A stretch of 48,004 nt of DNA from Plebeiibacterium marinum (GTDB lineage: Bacteria; Bacteroidota; Bacteroidia; Bacteroidales; Marinilabiliaceae), in assembly GCF_026013615.1 (NCBI RefSeq), contig NZ_JAPDPI010000042.1, positions 1-48,004 on the forward strand, given 5' to 3'. Positions 35,219-43,214 of this stretch are shown one piece after another. Positions within the stretch are counted from its first letter, which is position 1, and each line of letters opens with the position of its first letter. Position numbers and translations under genes: made by a program. The notes beneath the pieces are model-generated. The model made no database searches, was not told the DNA's origin, and saw only the letters and a program-made list of their open reading frames with translations.

Positions 35219-36454
35219 TTAATTTTCTTTTTCCCAAAAAAGGGTTTCATTCAGCTTGGCAACCCTCATTTTGCAGAAAGTTTCTATTTGGCTTTCCGAG
35301 GTTGAATCTTCCCTGTTTATTTTGTTTATAAGGTTATTGTAGCATTGTAGTGCCTTCTCTTTGTTTTTTATTTCGTAATCATATATCATGGCAATCTTAT
35401 ATTCACCAAAAATGTTTTCAGGACTGTAATTTGATATTAGTTTGTAGTGGGCAATCGCCTGTTTGTATTCCATCATCCATTCGAATGATTCAGCTATTCC
35501 TTTGTGAATCATGGCCATTGTTTTACTGTCGGGAGTGTACAATTCTAGTGATTTGTTCAGATAGGCAATGCTTTTATTGAAATTATTGTTGCGTTTGCAG
35601 CATATGCCTAAAACGTAATAAGCCAGGTAGTCTGTAGTGTCCTTTTTAATATAGTTCTCTAATACCGATTCCCCCCTAGTAAAATGAGAAATCTTCCAGC
35701 ATGAAAGTCCTAAAAATTTAGAAGTAACCTGTGATGAATCTCCATTTTTATATAAGTCATTAAAAATTTCGTATGCATCATATATACTGTCGTTTACATA
35801 TTGGGTTTTTCCATATAGTCGTTGCAGGACTTTACTGCAGTGCTGTTTTTTTGAATAGTAAGTGTTTAGGAAATGAAGTGCTTCGGTGTTCTTTTTGTTT
35901 TTTAATAGGATATCGGCCCCCTTGATTAAATTTGAGGTAGTTGGGTTCATTTCACAAGCCTTAGTATAATAAACTAAAGCGCTGTCTGCCGCATTAATAT
36001 CACGATAGGTGTCTGCAATTTGTGTAATAATATATAAGTTGTGTGGATCCTGCCATCTGATGTTTTTTAAAATTTGCAAGGCTTTCTTGTGTTCGTCGAG
36101 TTTCTTGTATAGTAATCCGCTTTTTATTCTGTAATGATTATTTTGAGGTTGATATTTTAATATTTTTAAAGTAAAGTCTAGTGCTTCCTGGTATTGCGAA
36201 GTATTTGTGTATAGCGACTCAAGTTCCTTGAGTATTTCCAAATTGGTAGTGTCGCGTTGATATATTTTTTGATAAGCATTAATTGCTTTATATAACTTGT
36301 AATTGTGCTCTAGCAGCTTGGCTTCTGAAATTTCGCTTGCATTGTTTGTATTTAATGTATCAGATAATATTTGGAATTGGGCAGATATTGCTGTCAGGTG
36401 TCCTGCCAAAAAAAGCAGAAAGCAAATTATAATTGTTTTTCTTGATAGTTTCAT
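35219..36454 (-). CDS. Exported TPR protein under a BlaI-type promoter
   Basis: The 411-residue protein begins with a signal peptide (residues 1-25, ending AISAQ), so its repeats lie in the periplasm or at the outer membrane. At least seven tetratricopeptide units follow, such as NYKLYKAINAYQKIYQRDTTN, EALDFTLKILKYQPQNNHYR, HKKALQILKNIRWQDPHN and SALVYYTKACEMNPTTSN. No other domain is seen. Its promoter (36487-36517) is followed directly by a 16-bp dyad identical to the one downstream of the blaI promoter at 41231, with a second dyad upstream. I infer direct repression by the BlaI-family protein encoded at 41323. Confidence 0.85.
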   Translation of the reverse strand: MKLSRKTIIICFLLFLAGHLTAISAQFQILSDTLNTNNASEISEAKLLEHNYKLYKAINAYQKIYQRDTTNLEILKELESLYTNTSQYQEALDFTLKILKYQPQNNHYRIKSGLLYKKLDEHKKALQILKNIRWQDPHNLYIITQIADTYRDINAADSALVYYTKACEMNPTTSNLIKGADILLKNKKNTEALHFLNTYYSKKQHCSKVLQRLYGKTQYVNDSIYDAYEIFNDLYKNGDSSQVTSKFLGLSCWKISHFTRGESVLENYIKKDTTDYLAYYVLGICCKRNNNFNKSIAYLNKSLELYTPDSKTMAMIHKGIAESFEWMMEYKQAIAHYKLISNYSPENIFGEYKIAMIYDYEIKNKEKALQCYNNLINKINREDSTSESQIETFCKMRVAKLNETLFWEKEN

Positions 36455-36470
36455 GGTTATATTTTTTAAG

Positions 36471-36486
36471 AACTAAAATATTAGTT
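36471..36486 (-). promoter_or_regulatory. BlaI-type operator O1 at the TPR promoter
   Basis: On the minus strand this reads AACTAATATTTTAGTT, a dyad of the form AACTAA-N4-TTAGTT. It starts at the base right after the -7 element, covers the expected transcription start and ends 16 bp from the start codon. All 16 bases equal the operator at 41231-41246 before blaI. Confidence 0.8.
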
Positions 36487-36517
36487 CAAACTTAAACTAA
36501 AAAAATAAGTTTGCAAA
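36487..36517 (-). promoter_or_regulatory. Promoter of the exported TPR gene
   Basis: On the minus strand, -33 TTTG (36517-36514), a 19-bp spacer and -7 TAAGTTTG (36494-36487) form a full consensus promoter. It is enclosed by two operators. Confidence 0.82.
36506..36513 (+). promoter_or_regulatory. Possible rightward -7 element towards GH31
   Basis: TAAGTTTG also occurs on the plus strand here and is followed 10 bp later by operator O2. It could start a transcript into the GH31 gene with a leader of about 250 bases. No -33 TTTG is present at the right spacing, so this is tentative. Confidence 0.35.
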
Positions 36518-36523
36518 TTATTT

Positions 36524-36539
36524 AACTAATAAATTAGTT
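36524..36539. promoter_or_regulatory. BlaI-type operator O2 between TPR and GH31 genes
   Basis: AACTAATAAATTAGTT is a perfect AACTAA-N4-TTAGTT dyad. Its start lies exactly 53 bp from that of O1, the same offset as between the two dyads at the blaI promoter (41178 and 41231). The rest of 36540-36769 before GH31 shows no gene and no exact promoter. Confidence 0.75.
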
Positions 36540-36775
36540 GTATTGAATTGGTGGGTAACAATAGATTGTATAGTTTCTATATTTTATGATAGTTTAAGTA
36601 AATTAAGTGGCAGATATATAGGTTGATATAAGTAGTGTTGTTTATATTTTTTGATGTTGTGTAGTAAAAAGGAGAAATTGCACTTTTACTAATTTATGAA
36701 ATTGGGATTGATATTAAATGTGCGCAGAAAAATTTGTATTGAGACCATGTTATAAAATATCTTATTAAAATGTAT

Positions 36776-39163
36776 ATGAAATTTACTTCTGGATTGACAA
36801 TTTTACTAATTACCCTGATTGGTTTCACAGGATGCCGTTCTAATTGCGACGGTCGCTTTGTAAAGGATGTAATTGAAACCGAAAAGGGCCTGACTGTAAT
36901 TACTAATGAAGGAGAAATCTATTTGAATGCGTTAACAGATTATTCGATTGAAGTTGAGTACGCATTATATGATATCGAAAACCCTCCCTCTTATGCAATT
37001 CCAAACACCCGCAAAAAGGTTGAAACAATTATAAAGGATAGTGGTACAAAACTTTCATTTTCAACAAAGGGAATGACCGCAGAGATAGGTAAATGTCCTT
37101 TTTCTTTATCTTTTTTTTCAGGAGATTCACTGTTGTTTTCAGAGGAAGTTGGTTTGGTGTATAATGATTCTTTAAAAGGATTCCGGATGAATCTTGAGCC
37201 AAATGAAATATTGATGGGGGGAGGCGAGCGTGTGCTGGGTATGGACAGAAGGGGGCATCGTCTTAGGCTGTATAATAAGGCTAGTTATGGTTATCAAACA
37301 CATGCTGAACTAATGTATTATTCTTTGCCTGTGGTGGTTTCATCAAATAAATATATGCTGTTGTTCGATAATGCTGCAGATGGTTGGTTAGATCTGGGTA
37401 AAACAGATCGGGATATTCTTCAGTTTGAAACAGTAGGAGGGAGGATGAGTTATGTTGTGGTGGCCGGGGAATCGATGCAAAAAGTGACCGAAAACTATGT
37501 GCAAGTTACAGGTTATCAACCAATGCCTCCTCGATGGGCGTTGGGTAATATTACTTCTCGAATGGGTTATCGTAGCCAGAAACAGGTAGAAGCTGTTGTT
37601 GATGAATATAAAAAGCAGGGATTTCCTCTTGATGGAATAGTTCTTGATCTGTACTGGTTCGGACCTGATGTTAAGGGGCATATGGGTAATTTGGACTGGG
37701 ATTGGAATGCATTCCCGGAACCAGAAAAAATGATGGAGAAAATAAAATCACAAGGTGTTAAAACAGTTTTAATTACCGAACCTTTTATTTTAAAAACAAG
37801 CAAAAAGTTTGAGGAATGTGCCCGTAATAATTTATTGGGGACAGATTCGTTGGGAAATCCTTATGTATTTGATTTTTTCTTTGGAACTACTGCTCTGCTC
37901 GATATATTTAAACAAGAGACAAAAGATTGGTTTTGGAGTGTTTATAAAAAACATACATTAAGTGGAGTAGATGGCTGGTGGGGCGATTTAGGTGAGCCGG
38001 AAATGCACCCGGATAACTTGCGTCACATAGTTGGGGATGCTAATGTGGTGCATAATGCCTATGGGCATGAATGGGCCAAAACAGTTTTTGAAGGTTTTCA
38101 AAATGATTTTACAAACAGGCGGCCTGTTATTTTAATGAGGGCAGGTTTTGCTGGTTCGCAACGGTATGGTATGATACCCTGGTCGGGCGATGTGAGTCGT
38201 ACGTGGGGAGGTTTAAAGCCTCAGGTGGAAATATCTTTACAAATGGGAATGCAGGGTTTGGCTTATATGCACTCGGATTTAGGCGGTTTTGCAGGAGATT
38301 ATAAAGATGCTGAATTGTACACAAGATGGCTTCAATATGGCGTATTCCAACCAGTGTACAGAACCCATGCACAGGAAGATGTTCCTCCGGAACCTATTTA
38401 TTGGGATAAAAAAACAAGGGATATAACCCGTAGATATATAAAATTGAGGTATGCGTTGACTCCATATCTATATACTATGGTTTACGAAAACAGTACAAAA
38501 GGAACACCATTGATGCGTCCCTTGTTTTATATGGATGAAGATACTGCTATAATGGATAATAAAGATACTTATTTATGGGGTAAAAACATGCTGGTTTCGC
38601 CGGTTACGGAGAAAGGTGCTGTAGATTGGCAGGTTGCCTTACCTCAAGGCGCTATTTGGTTTGATTTTTTCACAGGCGAAAAATTTGAAGGTGGTCAGGT
38701 AGTGACTGTTCCTGTGGATATTGAAAATATTCCGGTTTTTGTAAAAGGGGGTGCTTTTATTCCTATGGTAGACCCTGTTGGAAATATGGAAGAATATAGT
38801 ACAAAAAAACTAAGCCTTCATTATTATCATGATTCATCATTGATGAGTTCAGAGGATTTTATGTATGAGGATGACGGTATGTCAAACAATAGTTGGAAAA
38901 CTAATAGGTTTGAAAAACTTAATTTTAGGATGGAGAATATAAAAGGAGGTTTTGCTGTTATCCTATCCCGGGAAGATTATGAATACAAAGAAAAACCAGA
39001 TAATAGAGATATTTCTTTTTTTATCCATAATGTTCCTGAAGAACCAGAGGAAGTTGTCATAAATAATATAAAAACATCTTTTAACTATGATAGGAAAAAG
39101 CAGCAGCTTTATATAGATGCAGTCATGACAGGGAGTGATCAATTAGAAATAGTTATTAAATAA
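36776..39163 (+). CDS. GH31 alpha-glucosidase-type lipoprotein
   Basis: The protein is a glycoside hydrolase family 31 enzyme, expected to release glucose (or a related sugar) from the non-reducing end of alpha-glucans. Starting at the ATG 36776 gives 795 residues with a clean lipoprotein signal (lipobox FTGC); the ATG at 36770 adds two residues. The catalytic TIM barrel spans about 240-620, with the nucleophile Asp in GWWGDLGEPE (residue 404) and the acid/base Asp in WSGDVSRTWGGL (residue 472). An N-terminal GH31 beta domain and C-terminal beta domains flank it. The next gene is a GH13 lipoprotein 94 bp away on the same strand, so the pair probably acts on starch- or glycogen-like substrate at the cell surface or in the periplasm. 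No SusCD transporter is adjacent. Confidence 0.92.
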   Translation: MKFTSGLTILLITLIGFTGCRSNCDGRFVKDVIETEKGLTVITNEGEIYLNALTDYSIEVEYALYDIENPPSYAIPNTRKKVETIIKDSGTKLSFSTKGMTAEIGKCPFSLSFFSGDSLLFSEEVGLVYNDSLKGFRMNLEPNEILMGGGERVLGMDRRGHRLRLYNKASYGYQTHAELMYYSLPVVVSSNKYMLLFDNAADGWLDLGKTDRDILQFETVGGRMSYVVVAGESMQKVTENYVQVTGYQPMPPRWALGNITSRMGYRSQKQVEAVVDEYKKQGFPLDGIVLDLYWFGPDVKGHMGNLDWDWNAFPEPEKMMEKIKSQGVKTVLITEPFILKTSKKFEECARNNLLGTDSLGNPYVFDFFFGTTALLDIFKQETKDWFWSVYKKHTLSGVDGWWGDLGEPEMHPDNLRHIVGDANVVHNAYGHEWAKTVFEGFQNDFTNRRPVILMRAGFAGSQRYGMIPWSGDVSRTWGGLKPQVEISLQMGMQGLAYMHSDLGGFAGDYKDAELYTRWLQYGVFQPVYRTHAQEDVPPEPIYWDKKTRDITRRYIKLRYALTPYLYTMVYENSTKGTPLMRPLFYMDEDTAIMDNKDTYLWGKNMLVSPVTEKGAVDWQVALPQGAIWFDFFTGEKFEGGQVVTVPVDIENIPVFVKGGAFIPMVDPVGNMEEYSTKKLSLHYYHDSSLMSSEDFMYEDDGMSNNSWKTNRFEKLNFRMENIKGGFAVILSREDYEYKEKPDNRDISFFIHNVPEEPEEVVINNIKTSFNYDRKKQQLYIDAVMTGSDQLEIVIK

Positions 39164-39257
39164 TAATGTCAAGGACTTAAATTAGCATGACGATAAAAAA
39201 TGGAGATCTCTTTTCTCAGGATTCCGGTTTATCAGGATTGACACTAAATTTTATAGT

Positions 39258-41126
39258 ATGAAAAATAATTTAATAAGCATAGTGATTATGTTTGCTTTGT
39301 TAAGCGGGGCTTGTGTGCAACAAGGAAAACAGAAATCAGAACAGGATATAAAACCTGAAAAAGCGATAGTTTACCAGGTATTTACCCGTTTATTTGGAAA
39401 TAAAAATACCAATAACAAGCCATGGGGAACCATAGAAGAAAATGGTGTTGGAAAGTTTAATGATTTTACCGACCAGGCGCTTTCAGAAATCAAAGATTTA
39501 GGAGTTACACATATTTGGTATACAGGTGTTCCACATCATGCAACCATTACAGATTATTCTAAATATGGGATTTCCAATGATGATCCGGATGTTGTAAAGG
39601 GTAGGGCCGGGTCTCCTTATGCAGTTAAAGACTATTACCAGGTAGATCCTGATTTGGCAGTAGATCCTGAAAACAGGCTTGAAGAATTTAAGGCATTGGT
39701 GAATAGGACTCATAAGCACGGAATGAAAGTTATTATAGATATTGTGCCAAACCATGTGGCACGCAATTATAGAGGATTAAATAATCCGGAAGGAGTTGTT
39801 GATTTTGGGAGTCAAGATGATGTGAATGTTGAATATAAGAGGGATAATAATTTTTACTATGTGGTAAATGAAGCCTTTGAAGTACCTGAGACAATAGATG
39901 GATATGTGCCTTTGGGAAGTGCTGTACATCCTCTGGCTGATGGGAAGTTTGTTGAAAATCCTGCAAAATGGACAGGAAATGGATCCCGGTTGGCTCAGCC
40001 ACATCATTATGATTGGTATGAAACGGTAAAAATCAACTATGGCGTTCGCCCCGATGGTAGTTTTGATTTTGATACACTACCAGTGGCTTATTCAAATAAA
40101 GGGTTTGAAGCCCATTATGAATTTTGGAAGGATAAGATTGTGCCTGATTCGTGGACTAAATTCCGGGATATTGCTTTCTTTTGGTTGGATATTGGAGTTG
40201 ATGGTTTTCGATATGATATGGCAGAAATGGTTCCTGTTGAATTTTGGAGTTTTATGAATTCATCCATTAAAATGAAAAAAACAGATGCATTTTTGATGGC
40301 TGAGGTCTATCAGCCCGGGCTTTATCGTGATTACATTCATAAGGGCAAAATGGATTATTTATACGATAAGGTGGATTTGTACGATACACTGAAGCATATC
40401 ATGCAAGGTCGTGGTTTAACCGATAATATTGCTCCCATACAGGAAAAGCTTATGGATATAGAACATCACATGTTGCATTTTTTAGAAAATCACGATGAGC
40501 AGCGTATTGCTTCACCGGGTTTTGCAGGCGATGCAAGAAAAGGAATGCCAGCTATGGTAGTTTCAGCAACATTAAGTACTTCACCAACCATGGTTTATTT
40601 TGGACAAGAAGTTGGGGAGCCAGGAGATGAAGATGCTGGGTTTGGGAACCCTACACGAACTTCTATTTTTGATTATGTTGGGGTGCCTCACCATCAGAGG
40701 TGGATGAACGGAGGGGCTTTTGACGGAGGACAATCGACATTGGCGGAAATAGAGTTGCGTGATTTTTATAAGCGATTGTTAAATTTTACTGCCAAAAGCA
40801 AGGCTTTAATGGGATCATATAAAGATATTCATGCTTATAATAGAGAAAAAACAACAGGTTATACCTCCAAAGTTCATTCATTTGTTAGATGGAGTAGTGA
40901 TGAGAAGTTGGTTATTGTCTCAAATTTCAGCGATTCTGAGAATTTTGCTTTTCAACTAAAGCTACCGGAGGAAATTGTAAAAGAGTGGCAATTAACTAAT
41001 AAGCAATACAAACTTACAGATCAGTTATATCAGGAAGAGATTATGTATTTAGATGTGAAAGATGGCTTGGGTACTATAAATTTAGAAATAGGGTCATTGC
41101 AATCATTCATTTTAAAGCTCATGTAA
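39258..41126 (+). CDS. GH13 alpha-amylase-family lipoprotein
   Basis: The 622-residue protein has a lipoprotein signal (lipobox LSGAC) and a GH13 alpha-amylase barrel. The four conserved regions are visible: IIDIVPNHV, DGFRYDMAEM with nucleophile Asp320, LMAEVYQP with acid/base Glu349, and FLENHDEQR with the transition-state Asp413. A C-terminal beta domain (about 530-622) follows. It should cleave alpha-1,4-glucan links; the precise substrate (starch, glycogen, cyclodextrin) cannot be told. It is co-directional with the GH31 gene and lies 196 bp before blaI, which has its own promoter. No terminator was seen after it. Confidence 0.93.
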   Translation: MKNNLISIVIMFALLSGACVQQGKQKSEQDIKPEKAIVYQVFTRLFGNKNTNNKPWGTIEENGVGKFNDFTDQALSEIKDLGVTHIWYTGVPHHATITDYSKYGISNDDPDVVKGRAGSPYAVKDYYQVDPDLAVDPENRLEEFKALVNRTHKHGMKVIIDIVPNHVARNYRGLNNPEGVVDFGSQDDVNVEYKRDNNFYYVVNEAFEVPETIDGYVPLGSAVHPLADGKFVENPAKWTGNGSRLAQPHHYDWYETVKINYGVRPDGSFDFDTLPVAYSNKGFEAHYEFWKDKIVPDSWTKFRDIAFFWLDIGVDGFRYDMAEMVPVEFWSFMNSSIKMKKTDAFLMAEVYQPGLYRDYIHKGKMDYLYDKVDLYDTLKHIMQGRGLTDNIAPIQEKLMDIEHHMLHFLENHDEQRIASPGFAGDARKGMPAMVVSATLSTSPTMVYFGQEVGEPGDEDAGFGNPTRTSIFDYVGVPHHQRWMNGGAFDGGQSTLAEIELRDFYKRLLNFTAKSKALMGSYKDIHAYNREKTTGYTSKVHSFVRWSSDEKLVIVSNFSDSENFAFQLKLPEEIVKEWQLTNKQYKLTDQLYQEEIMYLDVKDGLGTINLEIGSLQSFILKLM

Positions 41127-41177: not shown

Positions 41178-41193
41178 AACTAAAAAAGTAGTT
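41178..41193. promoter_or_regulatory. Upstream imperfect operator at the blaI promoter
   Basis: AACTAAAAAAGTAGTT has one mismatch to the AACTAA-N4-TTAGTT dyad. It starts 53 bp before the downstream operator at 41231, exactly the offset seen at the TPR promoter. Confidence 0.6.
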
Positions 41194-41198
41194 TAAAA

Positions 41199-41230
41199 TT
41201 TGGATATTAAAAATAGATCGTTTATTTTTG
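41199..41230 (+). promoter_or_regulatory. Promoter of the blaI-M56 operon
   Basis: -33 TTTG (41199-41202), a 20-bp spacer and -7 TATTTTTG (41223-41230) form a full Bacteroidota promoter. The downstream operator begins at the next base. Confidence 0.8.
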
Positions 41231-41246
41231 AACTAATATTTTAGTT
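41231..41246 (+). promoter_or_regulatory. BlaI-type operator overlapping the blaI transcription start
   Basis: AACTAATATTTTAGTT directly follows the -7 element. It is identical, base for base, to the minus-strand reading of 36471-36486. Binding here would block the promoter, so autorepression is expected. Confidence 0.8.
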
Positions 41247-41322: not shown

Positions 41323-41694
41323 ATGAAGGAATTAACAAAAGCAGAAGAACAAGTAATGCAGATTATGTGGCAATTGGGCAAAACCACAGTGAAAAGCATT
41401 GTTGAAAAAATGCAGGAACCCAAACCTGCATTCAATACCATATCTACCATAGTAAGGATTTTAGAAACTAAAGGTTTTGTTGATCATGAAAAGGCAGGTA
41501 GAGGGTATGTTTATTTTGCTGTTGTATCTAAAGAATCATATCGTAAAAAGTTTATGAAGCGTTTTGTGTCAAACTATTTTCAAGGATCGTTGAAAGAATT
41601 GGTATCCTTTTTTGCAAAAGAAGACAATATGGATATTAAAGAACTTGAAGATCTGATGAATGATGTTAAGGACGAGTTAAAAAACGAAAATTGA
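41323..41694 (+). CDS. blaI: BlaI/MecI-family transcriptional repressor
   Basis: The 123-residue protein is a winged-helix repressor of the BlaI/MecI/CopY family: LTKAEEQVMQIMWQLGKTTVKSIVE at the N-terminus, the recognition region AFNTISTIVRILETKGFVDHEK (a typical T-V-x-T-x-L-x-R-L type helix), GRGYVYFAVVSKE, and a C-terminal dimerisation helix pair. In the classic system a membrane M56 metallopeptidase triggers its loss. The adjacent gene encodes such a peptidase, and the reading frames are only 5 bp apart. Operators at 41178 and 41231 suggest autoregulation. No beta-lactamase gene is nearby, so the inducer is probably not a beta-lactam. Confidence 0.92.
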   Translation: MKELTKAEEQVMQIMWQLGKTTVKSIVEKMQEPKPAFNTISTIVRILETKGFVDHEKAGRGYVYFAVVSKESYRKKFMKRFVSNYFQGSLKELVSFFAKEDNMDIKELEDLMNDVKDELKNEN

Positions 41695-41699
41695 CAGCT

Positions 41700-43214
41700 A
41701 TGGAAACTATTATTAAGTATTTGTTAGAATCATCCGTAATATTAGGAGTGTTAGCTGTTTTTTATCGCCTTGTGCTTCATAACGAACCAATGTTCAGGTT
41801 TAACAGAATGTACCTGCTTTTGTCGCTATTGGTGGCTGCAGTAGTTCCTTTGTTGGATTTGTCATCGTATTTTTTTACAAAAAACAGTGGCCCAAATATC
41901 ACTTACATGCTTGGGGCGGTGAATGTGTATTCTGGTCAGGTACAGCAAACTATTGTCCCGGTTATTACAAAGCACCATTTCTTTAATTGGCTTTATGTTG
42001 TCGGGGCATCTGTTTTGTTAGCCAGGCTTTTTTATGGGTTTTTCCGTTTGGGCGGATTATCCCAAAAGGCAGAATGGCAAAAAATTAATGGTTATAAGGT
42101 GGCAAATTTGCCCGGTCGCTTTAATCCGTTTTCGTTCTTTCGTGTCATTTTTGTTAACAGTTCTCTTTATTCAAAAGATGATTTGGCTAAAATTATGGAG
42201 CATGAAATGGCTCATGTTCGATTCAATCATTCACTAGATGTTATTATTATTGAGGCACTTTTGGTAATACAGTGGTTTAATCCATTTGCCTGGATTATTC
42301 GTCGGTTATTAAAAGAGCTTCATGAGTTTCAGGCCGATCAGGAAGTGTTAAAAAAGGGAGCTTCCATTGGTCAGTACAAAATGTTGTTGTTGTTTCAGGC
42401 ATCAGGTGCCCGTTTGCTGCCTGTAAATAACTTCAATCAATCCATTACTAAAAAACGATTTAAAATGATGACAAATAATTCTTTAAGAAACAGTGGCGTT
42501 ATGAAGGCTGTTGCTGGTCTCTTTGTTGTAGCCACAGTTACCTTCTTTTTTGCCTGTGATAATATTGGTACAGAAGAAATTCAGCAACAGGCTGATGAAA
42601 TATCCAATGAAGAGCTGATGGCTACAAAAGTTGAAGGATATTTTTTGCCGGACTCTTCAACCGTATATTTTATGGTTGACGAGATGCCGCAATTTCCTGG
42701 AGGTGATATGGAATTGCGGAAGTATATAGCACAGAGCGTGAAGTATCCTGTAATTGCCCGGGAGCAAGGAGTGCAAGGAAGGGTTTATGTGCAGTTTGTG
42801 GTTGATACAGATGGTAAGGTTGCTGATGTGAAAACGGTCCGGGGTGTTGATGTTAATCTTGACGAAGAAGCTATCCGGGTTATAGCCGGAATGCCAAAGT
42901 GGATACCCGGAAAGCACGAAGGTGAGCCAGTTAGGGTTTCGTATACTGTTCCTATAAATTTTGTTTTACAGGGTGAAGGTTCCGGGAAAGACATAATATC
43001 TGAAGAGCCCATGGTTTTAAAAGATGGAGTTGAGATAAGTAAGGCGGATATGAATAAACTGGATCCGGAAATAATAGAGTCGGTTAGTGTATTGAAGGAC
43101 AAGGCTCTTGCGGTAGAAAAATACGGTGAAAAAGCTAAGAATGGAGTAATAATTATAGAAACCAAAGAGGCTAATTCTGAAAAAAATGCAGTTCATGTTG
43201 TAGGCTATAAGTAG
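41700..43214 (+). CDS. M56 (BlaR1-like) metallopeptidase fused to TonB C-terminal domain and plug-like tail
   Basis: Numbering is from the ATG at 41700 (504 aa); a TTG at 41691 is a poorer start. The N-terminal part has several membrane segments and an M56 peptidase core with zinc motif HEMAH (168-172) and the downstream Glu of HEFQADQE. After a further membrane segment (about 270-290) comes a TonB C-terminal-like domain (about 329-425: PQFPGGD, YPVIAREQGVQGRVYVQFVV, WIPGKHEGEPV). The tail (about 450-500) reads DPEIIESVSVLKD...YGEKAKNGVIIIETK, which closely resembles the plug segment of SusC/TonB-dependent receptors. It probably senses an envelope signal and inactivates the adjacent BlaI. The role of the TonB- and plug-like parts is unknown. 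Confidence 0.88.
   Translation: METIIKYLLESSVILGVLAVFYRLVLHNEPMFRFNRMYLLLSLLVAAVVPLLDLSSYFFTKNSGPNITYMLGAVNVYSGQVQQTIVPVITKHHFFNWLYVVGASVLLARLFYGFFRLGGLSQKAEWQKINGYKVANLPGRFNPFSFFRVIFVNSSLYSKDDLAKIMEHEMAHVRFNHSLDVIIIEALLVIQWFNPFAWIIRRLLKELHEFQADQEVLKKGASIGQYKMLLLFQASGARLLPVNNFNQSITKKRFKMMTNNSLRNSGVMKAVAGLFVVATVTFFFACDNIGTEEIQQQADEISNEELMATKVEGYFLPDSSTVYFMVDEMPQFPGGDMELRKYIAQSVKYPVIAREQGVQGRVYVQFVVDTDGKVADVKTVRGVDVNLDEEAIRVIAGMPKWIPGKHEGEPVRVSYTVPINFVLQGEGSGKDIISEEPMVLKDGVEISKADMNKLDPEIIESVSVLKDKALAVEKYGEKAKNGVIIIETKEANSEKNAVHVVGYK

Follow-up and report, generated by a model that had tools for sequence, protein, structure and literature searches.

Pairs of a 16-bp dyad, AACTAA-N4-TTAGTT, bracket the promoter of a gene for an exported TPR protein (36471-36539) and the promoter of blaI (41178-41246) in the window, the whole stretch of 48,004 nt that was analysed. 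The BlaI-like repressor whose gene starts at 41323 very probably uses the dyads as operators, and it would form with its M56 partner a proteolytic switch that has an exported TPR solenoid as its output. The established role of BlaI/BlaR is in switching antibiotic resistance. Judged from the sequence, the chassis found here is the known one, and the operator, the sensor and the output differ from those of known BlaI/BlaR systems. A sequence-only reading of this DNA had proposed a BlaI/M56 circuit whose target is an exported TPR protein rather than a beta-lactamase, and the placement and recurrence of the dyad support such a circuit.

Operator pairs at the TPR and blaI promoters

The TPR gene (35219..36454, minus strand) starts at 36454. 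In its predicted promoter, operator A (36524..36539), an exact dyad, lies upstream of the -33 element TTTG (36514..36517, minus strand), and operator C (36471..36486; minus strand AACTAATATTTTAGTT), also exact, directly follows the -7 element (36487..36494, minus strand). The core between the dyads reads TTTG-N19-TAAGTTTG on the minus strand. The blaI promoter, on the plus strand, has operator A at 41178..41193, the -33 element TTTG at 41199..41202, the -7 element at 41223..41230 and operator C at 41231..41246, and its core reads TTTG-N20-TATTTTTG. The promoter elements were read from the sequence; TTTG/TAnnTTTG is the promoter type of Bacteroidota. The 16-mer of operator C is identical at the two promoters, and at each of them the dyad starts are 53 bp apart and the gap is 37 bp, all as had been claimed. 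The second dyad that had been placed across the -33 box of both promoters is exact at the TPR gene only; at blaI (AACTAAAAAAGTAGTT) it has one mismatch within the 12 fixed bases. The two promoters are identical at 47 of 69 bases overall, but at only 19 of the 37 bases between the dyads.

The full array in relatives, often found at the blaI promoter, has the order A / -33 / B / -7 / C. All three sites are present within one mismatch at 7 of 30 BlaI loci, the A-to-C distance being 54 bp at six of them and 53 bp at the seventh. Most of site B is gone from both window promoters and A and C are kept. A putative worn middle site B of 17 bp at the TPR promoter (36495..36511; minus strand AACTTATTTTTTTAGTT) is recognised by its match in position to the intact site B of relatives. 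The shared distance of 53 bp is best read as the outer spacing of a promoter-embedded array of three sites, of which A and C are retained at the two window promoters. The TPR promoters of two relatives (G007 and G008) carry exact pairs that are also 53 bp apart.

Repressor, sensor and exported TPR protein

The blaI gene (41323..41694, plus strand) encodes a Penicillinase_R repressor of 123 aa (PF03965, 114.2 bits; cut-off 22.6) that matches MecI/BlaI structures, including the MecI structure 1okr (E 1.6e-13). The cut site of S. aureus BlaI is given as N101-F102 in the excerpted text of PMC9834060. At the P1' position of this cut, F102 aligns with a Phe in the window BlaI, and N101 also aligns with a Phe. 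The window BlaI contains no cysteine.

The blaR gene (41691..43214, plus strand) overlaps the end of blaI and encodes an M56 sensor-protease of 507 aa with matches to PF05569, PF03544 and PF07715. The M56 domain scores 35.7 bits against PF05569 (cut-off 31), and H171, E172 and H175 of its HEMAH zinc-protease motif (42201..42215, plus strand) are invariant in 30 aligned sequences. The structural model of BlaR has a mean pLDDT of 80.7, and chains of S. aureus BlaR1 are its top hits in the PDB (8exp, E 6e-6); the membrane-protease part aligns with 8exr at a TM of 0.65 by target. In place of the penicillin sensor, BlaR has a TonB_C domain (42738..42968, plus strand), identified by Pfam and by a fold match to TonB C-terminal domains. 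The end of the protein contains a weakly matching plug-like segment (42981..43148, plus strand; PF07715, 22.9 bits against a cut-off of 23.9) that resembles SusC/RagA plug regions. No penicillin-binding domain was found in BlaR: outside M56, the only Pfam families are TonB_C and Plug, and the fold search matches this part to TonB domains. In Flavobacteriaceae, a gene for a small protein (about 158-169 aa) that matches the TonB-like part of BlaR often lies near blaI-blaR-TPR (L091, L109, L160, L179, L183, L195 and others).

The TPR protein (411 aa) has an N-terminal signal sequence, recognised by eye, and is modelled as a helical TPR solenoid with a mean pLDDT of 89.5. The fold was set aside as a clue to function, as only generic TPR superhelices were matched.

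Distribution of the dyad and linkage of TPR genes to blaI

The exact dyad occurs four times in the 5,621,283 bases (5.62 Mb) of the genome to which the window belongs, and three of the four lie at the TPR and blaI promoters. If placement were uniform, finding three of four dyads within 400 bp would have a P of about 1e-12, a figure calculated after the fact. A looser pair, AACTA-N6-TAGTT/N37/AACTA-N6-TAGTT, is found in this genome with 0 mismatches only at the TPR and blaI promoters; two further matches each require 3 mismatches. The agreement of the two promoters, which had been called hard to explain by chance, is borne out by these searches. Across 9 genus genomes, the exact dyad is present at 22 places, of which 19 are blaI or TPR promoters, one is another blaI and two lie elsewhere. 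Random spread of the dyad had been named as evidence against the circuit, and the BlaI-family and TPR promoters make up 20 of these 22 places. Counting the own genome in each set, dyad pairs were detected in 12 of 71 family genomes, where all 14 places are blaI or TPR promoters, and in 9 of 395 genomes from across the phylum. No beta-lactamase or PBP2a gene was found under an operator pair, and the only pairs of the own genome serve blaI-blaR and TPR.

Of the four exact dyads in the own genome, the remaining one (G000, C176:116521; L005 8522-8537) is located just upstream of a gene for an exported-looking thioredoxin-domain protein. This possible third target has a single dyad only, and no dyad within one mismatch was found at 8 other related loci, paralogs included.

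Upstream regions of 30 BlaI homologs that had been picked by protein contain the dyad (at most one mismatch, within 300 bp) in 24 cases, and the reversed control gave 0 of 30 for the same homologs. The six homologs without a site in 300 bp include one with only 38 bp of upstream DNA and one with an array about 570 bp upstream. Public genomes were scanned for exact dyad pairs 9-38 bp apart, which provided at least 118 stretches with at least 119 pair groups. Among the matches listed, 96 of 119 pair groups are directly followed by a BlaI gene (at -60 to 200 bp), 72 of 80 titled rows bear Bacteroidota names (read by eye), and blaR is the next gene after blaI in 41 of the 42 loci with 4.5 kb downstream. 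Of the 23 groups among the matches listed that fail the adjacency rule, some are probably chance occurrences or other targets, and several may have a blaI open reading frame hidden by the filter used (L154, L185 and L200, where blaR is next). The comparison identifies the dyad as the predicted BlaI operator of this group. Exact operator pairs are also found upstream of other exported-looking proteins (L099, L153, L118, L122, L131, L180 and L201), which are possible further targets in other lineages.

Two BlaI paralogs of the own genome, on C136 (L231 4888-5262) and C101 (L232 2236-2619), have tandem 16-bp dyads upstream with other halves, AACTTA/TAAGTT at C136 and TACGAC/GTCGTA at C101, which may point to a family of BlaI paralogs that each use their own operator code.

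An alignment search of the 71 family genomes returned 31 one-piece full-length TPR orthologs, followed by a clear gap. The dyad is present upstream of 16 of the 30 orthologs that were analysed as loci, and the reversed control gave 0 of 30. Four of these 16 genes are divergent neighbours of blaI and share its array (G002, G004, G005 and G006), three are separated from blaI on the same contig (the window, G007 and G008), and nine have an exact dyad and are located on contigs that show no BlaI match (G001, G017, G019, G034, G064, G065, G066, G069 and G070); the contigs of these nine are draft, and the distance to BlaI is large in G001. Another seven orthologs lie downstream of blaI on the same strand in blaI-blaR-TPR operons (G011, G013, G029, G031, G079, G080 and G081). 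Neither a dyad nor a blaI operon was found at the remaining 8 of the 31 (G016, G023, G027, G061, G062, G063, G071 and G072), and seven of these genomes have no close BlaI, G016 with a 73% identical BlaI being the exception. Conservation of the TPR promoter dyads in relatives that keep blaI had been named as a check: the dyads do recur where a close BlaI is kept, and conservation is incomplete to the extent of these eight orthologs. For the 24 TPR genes outside operons, a BlaI at least 65% identical is found with 15 of 16 that have the dyad versus 1 of 8 that do not (Fisher 1.8e-4, with a threshold picked post hoc and a test that ignores kinship).

A BlaI of at least 70% identity is present without a full-length TPR ortholog in five genomes (G003, G018, G033, G067 and G068), and in G068 the TPR frame is broken. 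Among the matches listed in public genomes, a TPR gene lies downstream of blaI in 16 of 42 loci, versus 2 of 185 other large open reading frames, and no TPR gene is downstream in the other 26; at L115 the TPR gene has an exact pair of its own. The TPR gene is, by this gene-order comparison, a recurring partner of blaI-blaR, often as operon partner or divergent neighbour.

Glycosidase genes of families GH31 and GH13 (36770-41126) are found between TPR and blaI in the window, G007 and G008, and before TPR in G004. From this gene order, a local rearrangement appears either to have split a divergent TPR/blaI pair or to have brought the pair together. The glycosidase genes themselves are not favoured as operator targets: the operators stay with TPR though GH31 is about 690 bp away in G007, and the GH31-GH13 genes of G004 are not preceded by an operator, even with one mismatch allowed.

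Counted on its own, the single dyad shows no excess, and the reversed pattern is as frequent (6 places versus 4 in the own genome; 31 versus 22 in the genus), as would be anticipated for chance palindromes in AT-rich DNA. Dyad placement, not dyad count, is non-random. The concentration at BlaI-family and TPR promoters, the two promoter controls without a single hit and the reversed-pair controls, with 0 in 71 family genomes and 0 in 395 phylum-wide genomes, rule out a chance origin, raw counts notwithstanding, and leave it next to no probability.

It is unlikely that the TPR sites, though real operators, are recognised by an unrelated regulator or by a paralog of BlaI, with TPR and blaI co- or cross-regulated. 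The own genome does encode the two further BlaI-type proteins, and in relatives BlaI paralogs of 42-49% identity have one AACTAA-N4-TTAGTT upstream (G005 C46, L289, L292 and L297); however, the own paralogs are preceded by different tandem 6-N4-6 dyads, and the presence of the dyad at TPR goes together with that of a close BlaI ortholog. The array common to the divergent genes in G002, G004, G005 and G006, together with the two intervening glycosidase genes in the window, G007 and G008, would also suit a relic, in which TPR was once a divergent neighbour on shared blaI operators and moved off with a piece, leaving sites that no longer matter. Such a history without present function is very improbable, since the DNA between the dyads of the window promoters has diverged while the dyads stay exact, the exact pairs are kept at the same 53 bp in G007 and G008, and an exact dyad is kept at nine TPR genes on other contigs.

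Proposed switch and known systems

In the preferred BlaI/M56 switch, a BlaI dimer on the sites that bracket the -33/-7 core would repress two promoters, that of its own blaI-blaR genes and that of the exported TPR gene. An envelope signal on the TonB-like extracytoplasmic part of BlaR would activate the M56 protease, the activated BlaR would cleave BlaI, and both promoters would open together. Binding, repression, cleavage and signal are steps that we infer for the switch. The cleavage chain is most likely as modelled on S. aureus BlaI/BlaR1, where BlaR1 cleaves BlaI on signal according to the excerpt of PMC9834060. The exported TPR protein would be the main output besides repressor and sensor; it most likely acts in the envelope, as a periplasmic partner or effector, and perhaps as a feedback partner of BlaR. 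The lack of a penicillin-binding domain speaks against a beta-lactam, bound in the known manner, as the signal, and the TonB-like part of BlaR points to a cue from the outer membrane or from transport.

More tentatively, a widespread Bacteroidota envelope-surveillance switch may be envisaged, in which an M56 protease with a TonB-/plug-like sensor would report TonB-dependent outer-membrane transport or another envelope cue and destroy BlaI, yielding an exported TPR solenoid that acts in or feeds back on the machinery. If true, the staphylococcal penicillin switch would represent a single variant among those built on a general sensor chassis. In many Bacteroidota the BlaI/BlaR chassis appears with a different operator, a different sensor and, as its recurring output, an exported TPR protein. 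The defined 16-bp operator and the minimal regulon, which in the genus extends hardly beyond blaI-blaR and TPR, provide a directly testable system and would give a role to the genes that annotation usually labels penicillinase repressors.

The system resembles S. aureus BlaI/BlaR1 and MecI/MecR1 in having a Penicillinase_R repressor beside an M56 sensor-protease and, here by sequence, operators at its own promoter; with BlaI/BlaR1 it also shares the BlaR1-like fold of the membrane-protease part and the Phe at the mapped cleavage position. The differences are the AACTAA-N4-TTAGTT operator, where the classical BlaI core is TACA/TGTA (PMC7253601, in the part available), the TonB_C domain and plug-like segment, where BlaR1 and MecR1 have a penicillin-binding domain, and the candidate target, an exported TPR protein and not a beta-lactamase or PBP2a. 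The copper repressors CopY/CopR are related, and the same part of PMC7253601 describes for Enterococcus hirae a 16-base operator with two copies per promoter. In contrast to the window system, their operator is RNYKACANNTGTMRNY, metal control is exerted via a C-terminal Cys-X-Cys, which the cysteine-free window BlaI cannot provide, and no M56 partner is present.

No description of an AACTAA-N4-TTAGTT operator or of a TPR target was found in the open-access library that was searched, and PMC12578637, as excerpted, proved to be a false lead. The same repressor-protease pair occurs as blaI-M56 gene pairs in other Bacteroidota. In the excerpts seen, a BlaI-family gene that neighbours an M56 gene appears in the hemin-dependent tables for P. 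gingivalis (PMC10470040), a BlaI-family gene is up in an R. anatipestifer mutant (PMC5294843), and BlaI-family regulators are up on algal polysaccharides in Zobellia (PMC5613140).
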